Origin: Opitutaceae bacterium
GTDB lineage: Bacteria; Verrucomicrobiota; Verrucomicrobiia; Opitutales; Opitutaceae
NCBI GenBank assembly: GCA_028284235.1
Contig: JANQSC010000058.1
Coordinates: forward strand, 1-64,000
Direction of reading: 5' to 3'
DNA length: 64,000 nucleotides
The notes beneath the pieces were generated by a model. The model was not told the DNA's origin, made no database searches, and was given only the letters and a program-made list of their open reading frames with translations. The first letter of the stretch is position 1, and the number at the start of each line of letters is the position of its first letter. The translations under genes and the position numbers were made by a program. This document shows, in pieces, positions 26,210 to 28,800 of this stretch.

Positions 26210-26752
26210 CTAGCTGGACTCGCTCGCCGCCTCCGCCTTTACCGGGGCGGCCTCCGGCTCGGCGCTGGCGGCTCCGAGAAAGGCGAGCTTCTCCTGGTTC
26301 TCAATGAAAAACTGCGGATCCAATTCTATATTCGGGACCGCGTACTCCAGTTTCGTGGGCCGATGAATGTAGTGCGTGAACTTCGAGTCCTTCGCCTTCA
26401 CCCGCAACAAGCGCCGTCGCTCCAGCATCAATCCCAAAAGGTGCTTGAGCTTCGCGTTCTCCTGGGTTGGGCCGTCCTCCCCTTCGAAAAGACTGACGAA
26501 CAAATTGTCTGCCGTTAGCTTCATCGCTTCCTGCGCCTCCTTTTCCTCTGTAGAACGCGGTTTGAAAACCACTGTCCAGCGGCAGATCAACTCCCCCGGA
26601 AGCTCATAGCTCGCTTCCTCCGATTCAAGCACATCCGCCCGCATGACGTCTTCCTCGAGCCGGATCAGCAGGCTGACCACGCGAGCGTCCTTCTCAAACG
26701 GCTCGCCGGTCGAAATCGATTGCCGGGAAATTGGAGCGATATGCCATTCCAT
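26210..26752 (-). CDS. Hypothetical protein, 180 aa
   Basis: A soluble protein with no signal or membrane segment. From ATG 26752 it reads MEWHIAPISRQSISTGEPFE. It contains a charged helical region (PRSTEEKEAQEAMKLTADNL), then LLGLMLERRRLLRVKAKD and a short YIHRPTKLEYAVP segment, and ends in an Ala/Glu-rich tail (AEPEAAPVKAEAASESS). I know no function. The upstream in-frame TTG at 26770 is a weaker start. It diverges from the isochorismatase-like gene, whose start lies 95 bp away. Confidence 0.7.
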   Translation of the reverse strand: MEWHIAPISRQSISTGEPFEKDARVVSLLIRLEEDVMRADVLESEEASYELPGELICRWTVVFKPRSTEEKEAQEAMKLTADNLFVSLFEGEDGPTQENAKLKHLLGLMLERRRLLRVKAKDSKFTHYIHRPTKLEYAVPNIELDPQFFIENQEKLAFLGAASAEPEAAPVKAEAASESS

Positions 26753-26846
26753 ACGAAGCCCACTATTCAAGCCAACCCGCGTCTGGCTAGAAAATTCTCG
26801 CTGTTCTTGTTGAATAAGCTCCAGGAAACGCCACGGTACTGCCCCT

Positions 26847-27752
26847 ATGCCAAATTCTGAAATGGATCCCGGCGAGCTTACGAGCGACGCGGCCCTCCTC
26901 GTGGTCGACGCTCAAGACTGCTTCGTCGACACTCTCCACGACAAGAAGACATTCCTCGCCCGTTGCGCGTTCTCGATCGACGCCGCGCGAACGCTGGGAA
27001 TCCAAACCGTTTTCACAGAACAAGTTCCCAACAAGCTCGGCCCCACGCGAGCGGACCTGATCCAGCGCGCTCAATCGCCAGCCGTATTTCCCAAAACAAG
27101 CTTTTCCGCCCTCAACGCCCCCGGCCTGAAAGAGTTTCTGCGCAAGAAGGAAATCTACCACCTGCTCGTCTGCGGTCTGGAAACGCCGATCTGCATCTAC
27201 CAAACCGGGCTGCAAGCCGCGAGCGAGGACTTCGACCTGACCTTTCTCTCCGACGCTCTCGGCTGCCGACGCTCGGAAGACGCCCCCTTCGCCCTGCAAG
27301 CCCTACAACAACTCGGCTGCCCCATCCTCCCCTCCGAAACCGTCTTCTACGGCATTCTCTCAGAAGCGACCCACCCGCAATTCCGCGCCTTCAGCCAATT
27401 GGTGAAACTCTACTCGGAAACCGATTTCTCCATCGAAAAACACCTGGCCGAAGTCCCCAAATTTCCAAAAAAACAGAAAACGTCCCGGCGACCCGCGCCC
27501 AAAAAGAAGGCGACGAAGACCCCGAAAAAGCCGACCGTTCAGCGGAAGAAGTCGAACGAGTCTCCGAAGCGACCTCGGAAACCGGAGGCAACAGCAACCG
27601 AGCCCGCATCGGGAAACGCAAAGGCGACGGCAAAAACGCCCACGCGAAAAGCCACCAAGAAAGCCGCGAGAAAACAAGTGGCACGAAAACGGACCGGCAC
27701 CGCCCAGTCTTCGCGATCGAAAGCGAAACGCCCTCCCAAAGCAGACGACTAG
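26847..27752 (+). CDS. Isochorismatase-like hydrolase with histone-H1-like basic tail
   Basis: 301 residues in two distinct parts. Residues about 14-200 form a cysteine-hydrolase domain of the isochorismatase/nicotinamidase superfamily. The triad is visible as Asp21 (LLVVDAQDCF), Lys83 (FPKTSFSAL) and Cys116 (LVCGLETPICIYQTG). The last 95 residues are almost only Lys, Arg, Pro, Ala, Thr and Ser, with repeated KKKATKTPKK and TRKATKKAARK motifs like the C-terminal tail of histone H1 or bacterial HU/AlgP-type proteins. The tail is in frame and ends at a normal stop. It could bind DNA, RNA or polyphosphate. The enzyme's substrate is unknown. Confidence 0.88.
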   Translation: MPNSEMDPGELTSDAALLVVDAQDCFVDTLHDKKTFLARCAFSIDAARTLGIQTVFTEQVPNKLGPTRADLIQRAQSPAVFPKTSFSALNAPGLKEFLRKKEIYHLLVCGLETPICIYQTGLQAASEDFDLTFLSDALGCRRSEDAPFALQALQQLGCPILPSETVFYGILSEATHPQFRAFSQLVKLYSETDFSIEKHLAEVPKFPKKQKTSRRPAPKKKATKTPKKPTVQRKKSNESPKRPRKPEATATEPASGNAKATAKTPTRKATKKAARKQVARKRTGTAQSSRSKAKRPPKADD

Positions 27753-27768: not shown

Positions 27769-28800
27769 CTAGAATCGCCGGTCGATGCCGGCGCTCGGGA
27801 AGAGGTCGACGGGCTGGACGGAAGCGTCGCCGCCTTCGAAAATCCGGCTGAACGCAATCATCCCGGCGTTGTCGCCGGTGTGGGCGCGACGAGCAAGCAA
27901 GGCCGGGACGTTCGCGTCGGCTCCCAATCTCTGGAAACGCGACCGCAACGACTCGTTGTTGGAAACCCCGCCAGAAAGCCCGAGGCTTCGAAAGCTCCCC
28001 TTTTTCAAGGCTCGTTTCGTCTTCTGTATCAGCACGTCAACTACCGCTTCCTGATAGGAAGCGCACACGTCGGATTCGACCGTTTGCAAGCTCGACGCCG
28101 TCTGCTTCTCAAGCAAGTAGCGCAAACTCGTTTTCAAACCGGAAAAACTGAAATCCAAATTCGGCTTTCGCGCCAGTCCCCTGGGAAACTCGAACGCGTC
28201 CGGATTTCCACCTCGGGCCTTCGCCTCCAATTTGGGCCCGCCCGGATAGCCAATTCCGAGAAGCTTCGCCCCCTTGTCGAGCGCCTCGCCCGCAGCATCG
28301 TCGATCGTCTGCCCCAGGACTTCAATCGAGCGATCCGCGTGAATCCGCGCCAAGATCGTATTTCCTCCCGACACAATGAGCGAAAGATGCGGCAGCCACT
28401 CGGGAAGCCGCTGGTCGAAATCGCTCGGAGCGTTTTCGAACGCGTCGATGAACACCGACTGAGCGTGAGCCCGCAAATGGTTGGCCGCGAGGACCGGGAC
28501 GCCCAGCGCTGTAGACAATGCGTTGGCGACTGAAATCCCCATCGCCAGACAGCCCGCCAAGCCCGGTCCGGCAGTCACTACGATTTCGTCGATCCGGGAA
28601 AGCGAAATCGCCTTGCTCATTTCGGCAAGAAGCGGAGCGAAGTTGTTCAAGTGCTCCCGACTTGCCAGGTCCGGAACGACGCCTCCGTATTCAGAATGCA
28701 GTGACACTTGACTGCTGATCCACTCGCCGACCAATCCGCGCGACCGGTCCAGCAGAGCCAAAGCAGACTCGTCGCAGGAGCTCTCGATCCCCAAGATCAT
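27769..28800 (-). CDS. tsaD: tRNA N6-adenosine threonylcarbamoyltransferase TsaD
   Basis: TsaD transfers the threonylcarbamoyl group to A37 of ANN-decoding tRNAs, making t6A together with TsaB, TsaC and TsaE. The 343-residue protein opens MILGIESSCDESALALLD, then has the metal-binding NHLRAHAQSVF (H-x-x-x-H), the ASKHA loops LSLIVSGGNTIL and GLSGGVSNN, and a distal metal-site Asp in HTGDNAGMIAF. It starts 5 bp after the ctpA stop, so both are in one operon. Confidence 0.97.
   Translation of the reverse strand: MILGIESSCDESALALLDRSRGLVGEWISSQVSLHSEYGGVVPDLASREHLNNFAPLLAEMSKAISLSRIDEIVVTAGPGLAGCLAMGISVANALSTALGVPVLAANHLRAHAQSVFIDAFENAPSDFDQRLPEWLPHLSLIVSGGNTILARIHADRSIEVLGQTIDDAAGEALDKGAKLLGIGYPGGPKLEAKARGGNPDAFEFPRGLARKPNLDFSFSGLKTSLRYLLEKQTASSLQTVESDVCASYQEAVVDVLIQKTKRALKKGSFRSLGLSGGVSNNESLRSRFQRLGADANVPALLARRAHTGDNAGMIAFSRIFEGGDASVQPVDLFPSAGIDRRF

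Follow-up and report, generated by a model that had tools for sequence, protein, structure and literature searches.

A MAR1/ISOC-type hydrolase with a disordered polybasic tail in the Pelagicoccus-related part of Opitutales

What might a long lysine- and arginine-rich C-terminus do for a cysteine hydrolase, and to what could it hold the enzyme? The question is raised by an ATG-started open reading frame of 301 aa that occupies positions 26847-27752 (+) exactly in the window, the 64,000-nucleotide stretch of an Opitutaceae bacterium genome analysed here. The MAR1/ISOC branch of the isochorismatase fold, to which the catalytic part of its product belongs, is present in bacteria and eukaryotes, and we know of no settled physiological substrate for it. 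The first-pass annotation of this DNA had described a complete hydrolase domain continuing in frame into a histone-H1-like tail, and had proposed that a tethered enzyme might act near nucleic acid or on NAD-linked nucleoid signals.

The domain itself is as first described. Residues 15-164 match Pfam Isochorismatase (PF00857) with 96.3 bits versus a gathering score of 27 (E 3e-27), as do all 54 homologues, and the Asp-Lys-Cys triad D21, K83 and C116 shows no variation across the 54 aligned sequences. The catalytic domain (residues 1-188; 26847..27410, +) also carries the motifs TEQxPxKLGxT and GLETPICxYQT, and the protein is the only member of PF00857 in the 6.13 Mb genome. In the AlphaFold2 model, residues 11-200 mostly have pLDDT > 92; secondary structure ends at residue 201, and pLDDT drops to 50-60 from about residue 221.

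Its sequence places the domain with the short MAR1/ISOC type rather than among nicotinamidases. Aligned to 2b34, 8rkz and E. coli PncA and YcaC, it has the EQxPxxLGxT motif of the MAR1/ISOC short subgroup and, like that subgroup, no substrate-loop insert. Its nearest relatives by sequence are MAR1 entries and the cysteine hydrolases 8rkz and 8rl0 (best E 1e-19 to 1e-16), and by fold MAR1-type and cysteine-hydrolase entries again (VIA Z 23-26, likewise with Foldseek). The MAR1-type proteins (PDB 2b34, 1x9g, 1xn4) and the fungal/oomycete 8rl0 and 8rkz have EQxPxxLGxT and GxE..xCxxQT in common with the window protein, but their chains of 192-220 residues are only 22-28% identical to it and lack such a tail; YcaC (1yac, 4wgf) has the same fold as the window domain (Z ~23), but is 18% identical and tailless. 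The earlier suggestion of NAD chemistry, in which a nicotinamidase or pyrazinamidase would feed or drain NAD near the nucleoid, fares poorly in these comparisons and is in our view highly improbable. The superfamily and the triad are common ground, and there is a weak hit to the NCBIfam PncA equivalog model (19.6 bits, cut-off 174). However, the metal-ligand insert of PncA (an Asp/His/His loop, DWHPANHGS... in the E. coli protein) has no counterpart in the alignment, and isochorismatases and nicotinamidases score lower by fold than the MAR1-type entries (Z 18-20; nicotinamidases 18.6).

Two precedents bear on a link between this fold and RNA. The MAR1 protein of Leishmania tarentolae was isolated as an endoribonuclease associated with mitochondria (PMC10213629), and among MAR1-type proteins RNase activity is claimed for this one only. 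CrcA (PA1677) of Pseudomonas aeruginosa is an isochorismatase-like protein that acts in Hfq/Crc post-transcriptional control by binding Crc; the authors who tested it for RNase activity saw none, and the early claim for MAR1 could not be reproduced for this bacterial protein (PMC10213629). By description, CrcA resembles the window protein as a short isochorismatase-like protein with a tie to post-transcriptional control (PMC10213629), but is set apart by a Ser that replaces the catalytic Cys, by its binding of Crc and by a description that includes no tail. In a limited collection of literature, we found no paper on 8RKZ or on YhaM together with an isochorismatase.

The tail (residues 204-301; 27456..27749, +) is disordered and polybasic as judged from composition, AlphaFold2 and relatives: residues 206-301 (n = 96) comprise 23 K and 11 R (34 K + R), 15 A, 12 P and 12 T. 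In the window, none of the three forward frames is interrupted by a stop along the tail, so the window alone could not settle which one is read, and this openness is what a frameshift or assembly artefact, allowed for by the first-pass annotation, would have in its favor. The relatives refute that explanation, to which we attach a negligible probability. An in-frame tail is carried by 23 distinct genomes, namely 20 of the 74 family members examined (window included) and three further genomes of the Pelagicoccus group (genus g20). All 15 of the other tailed genes checked are open in the tail frame and interrupted by stops in one or both of the remaining forward frames. In close pairs, dN/dS is 0.21-0.49 for the tail versus 0.08-0.20 for the domain of the same pairs, which is purifying selection at the codon level. 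The Lys/Arg/Pro/Ala/Thr tail is therefore read in the frame in which it was annotated.

A second way in which the fusion might have dissolved, a lack of the tail in relatives, holds outside one clade and fails inside it. The 54 tailless relatives end 2-11 residues past the domain, after a conserved LVK. In a maximum-likelihood tree of the domain, a single change accounts for all tailed orthologues, which lie on one side of one branch (support 79/85; recovered in 77% of bootstrap trees), and every tailed-clade orthologue found has kept the tail, with no loss. The sequences favor, though they do not prove, a single gain of the tail in the Pelagicoccus-related part of the family, and the fusion is conserved across the 23 genomes of that one clade. 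Outside the order, the nine phylum orthologues inspected (L269-L277) have no like tail, and neither a YhaM nor a phosphoesterase gene nearby. Between domain and tail lies a short extension (residues 189-203; 27411..27455, +) that adds a helix at 196-201 and bears the motif xFSxxxFsxexYL, delimited by AlphaFold2 and alignment. It can be made out in most core tailed members, is blurred in genera g9 and g13 and in two members of g1 (the genus of the window), and absent from g33, g37, g34 and g14.

Across the family, the tails are 101-259 aa long, with 19-33% K + R and a net charge of +8 to +31. Their sequence and length drift and their composition is kept: tails are 34-55% identical where domains are 68-90% identical. 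Free length under purifying selection is a pattern that selection on composition typically leaves. The mean profile of 20 tails has its R maximum in deciles 3-4 and its K and A maxima in deciles 8-9, the part poorest in acidic residues. In tails of the Pelagicoccus group, RRGRRRGRGR-like stretches precede KKAAKKVAKK runs; the window tail is a short, plainer form without the RG stretch. Of 268 window frames of at least 100 aa, this gene alone has such a C-terminus, so DNA composition in general does not explain the tail, and a local composition effect is ruled out by the same count. The 16 kb flanks of the relatives hold no other C-terminus of the polybasic type.

The label “histone-H1-like” survives in part. 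The composition fits, and the window tail has a few [ST]P-x-[KR] motifs (3, versus 0.4 in shuffled sequences). However, the Pfam HC2 histone-like model (PF07382) leaves the window protein unmatched at E ≤ 0.01 and matches one of 54 homologues, weakly (E 0.0023). H1-type composition and motif enrichment are points in favor of a tail that anchors the hydrolase on nucleoid or polyphosphate granules, a role proposed for the KPAA tails of AlgP/PhaF, with AlgP as the precedent (PMC9239181). Those proteins likewise join a folded N-terminal part to a disordered K/A/P-rich tail, but their KPAA repeats accompany a helical or phasin domain, whereas inspection of the window tail finds no tandem KPAA repeats and its partner is a hydrolase; granule or DNA binding by the window protein would be putative. 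The missing repeats and the single HC2 match count against the nucleoid or granule reading, as do the RG-rich stretches of the Pelagicoccus-group tails, which are more typical of RNA binders.

Similar blocks on other proteins were surveyed with the single pattern KK[AT][AT]KK, which gives a sample rather than a census and misses the window gene itself. In the window genome, the pattern falls in or near Rho (N-terminal), a topoisomerase C-terminus, ribosomal protein S2 (C-terminal), a ribbon-helix-helix protein, a helix-hairpin-helix protein with a K-rich tail, a helix-turn-helix-like protein and one small unassigned protein; a second topoisomerase has a single motif away from its end. Rho, the topoisomerase and S2 have the same KKAAKK-type block, but they are core nucleic-acid machines, and here the block is partnered with a small-molecule-type hydrolase. 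The ribbon-helix-helix protein has very long KKAAPKKK-type tandem tails that differ in length among species (L157, L168, L169), Rho of this clade has an N-terminal K/A block and an N/R/G/Q-rich insert (L163, L165, L171), and S2 at L161 has a long C-terminal extension, acidic and then K/A-rich. In genome G387, a protein that by eye is probably pyruvate phosphate dikinase (PPDK) has an N-terminal K/A-rich block (L221).

K-rich end pieces in this lineage are therefore not limited to nucleic-acid proteins, the probable PPDK being an example, and this bears on the strongest rival reading: that K/A repeats readily spread to many N- and C-termini in the clade, and that on the hydrolase they form a low-complexity decoration, nearly neutral and lineage-wide, with no dedicated job beyond charge or solubility. 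K/A blocks on several unrelated clade proteins, the probable PPDK among them, and the strong drift of the tails relative to their domains both suit such a decoration. It sits less well with the retention of the tail in every tailed-clade orthologue found, with dN/dS below 0.5, with an ordered layout of R and then K, and with the lack of a comparable C-terminus elsewhere in the 64 kb window or the relatives' 16 kb flanks. Most other carriers in the window genome, moreover, bind nucleic acid. We regard neutral decoration as possible, if somewhat unlikely. The ribbon-helix-helix and topoisomerase proteins, which bind DNA and have like tails, also lend something to the nucleoid reading.

The gene neighborhood points toward RNA. 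A cluster of an ApaH/PrpE-like phosphoesterase, the MAR1-like hydrolase and a YhaM-like 3'-5' exoribonuclease is found order-wide, at 30+ loci (for example L065, L017 and L021). The upstream phosphoesterase is calcineurin-like (PF00149), with best NCBIfam matches to ApaH, bacterial PNKP and PrpE, all below cut-off; the downstream OB + HD protein matches YhaM best (E 1.6e-48), also below cut-off. Among the 54 tailless genomes, the phosphoesterase gene is adjacent to the hydrolase in 33 (30 of 46 genera) and the YhaM-like gene in 32 (26 of 46 genera). The cluster is likely an operon, co-transcription being suggested by this arrangement, and the hydrolase's partners in it are concerned with RNA or nucleotide ends rather than DNA. 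We consider a tether to nucleoid or polyphosphate distinctly unlikely.

The tailed clade itself divides. Early tailed genera keep the cluster: g33, g37 and g14 retain both partners, and g34 has YhaM beside the hydrolase; in the core tailed genera g1, g13, g20 and g9, tsaD directly follows the hydrolase. In the window, this convergent neighbor (27769..28800, −) marks the site where the YhaM partner is missing. Searched genome-wide, none of 19 core-clade genomes has YhaM (hits ≤ 30 bits, RNase Y where checked), and a YhaM gene elsewhere in the window genome was considered and rejected, the sole match being RNase Y. The phosphoesterase is absent from 17 of the 19, with a 69-bit hit in G395 and a 27-bit hit in G001. 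On this distribution, the tail would have arisen before the partners were lost, if the tree is right. On the other side of the gene, the divergent neighbor upHyp (26210..26770, −; 186 aa) flanks the locus in 39 of the 54 tailless genomes, order-wide in most Opitutales. It matches no Pfam family. A fold comparison of its AlphaFold2 model (pLDDT 80) with the PDB gave no match at E ≤ 0.001, a result from which novelty of the fold does not follow. A promoter and terminator scan returned nothing beyond chance.

Taken together, we give even chances to the reading that this MAR1/ISOC-type cysteine hydrolase is held to polyanions by its tail acting as an electrostatic tether, with RNA (transcripts or the ribosome) likelier than DNA. 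In the Pelagicoccus-related lineage, the C-terminus gained, probably once, a disordered polybasic tail with, on average, an R-rich stretch and then a K/A-rich end; this tail would concentrate the hydrolase on polyanions, with RNA first among the candidate sites (RNA, ribosome or nucleoid), and the hydrolase would act there. RNA is preferred on account of the ancestral gene's likely operon partners, the YhaM-like exoribonuclease and the ApaH/PrpE-like phosphoesterase; since the core clade has lost both, that link is not valid in the window organism today. Also in favor of the tether are the MAR1 entries as closest matches and the MAR1 and CrcA precedents; on the other side stand the lack of RNase activity in CrcA (PMC10213629) and the K-rich ends of proteins with no obvious tie to nucleic acid. 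The earlier proposal of a hydrolase tethered near nucleic acid was thus its best-supported idea, given the K/A ends of nucleic-acid proteins in the same genome, although the operon shifts the likely site from nucleoid to RNA.

A bolder version, which we think improbable, is that the MAR1-type hydrolase belongs to a bacterial RNA-end-processing module, and that in the Pelagicoccus lineage it gained an RNA-binding tail of its own, after which the phosphoesterase and YhaM became dispensable and were lost. If true, this would give new life to a doubted proposal, that RNA or an RNA-linked group is what the fold acts on. The exoribonuclease cluster and the lineage-specific polybasic tail together offer an independent, testable link between a MAR1/ISOC enzyme and RNA, and the clade provides a natural series: tailless genomes that have the cluster, tailed ones that have it, and tailed ones that lack it.
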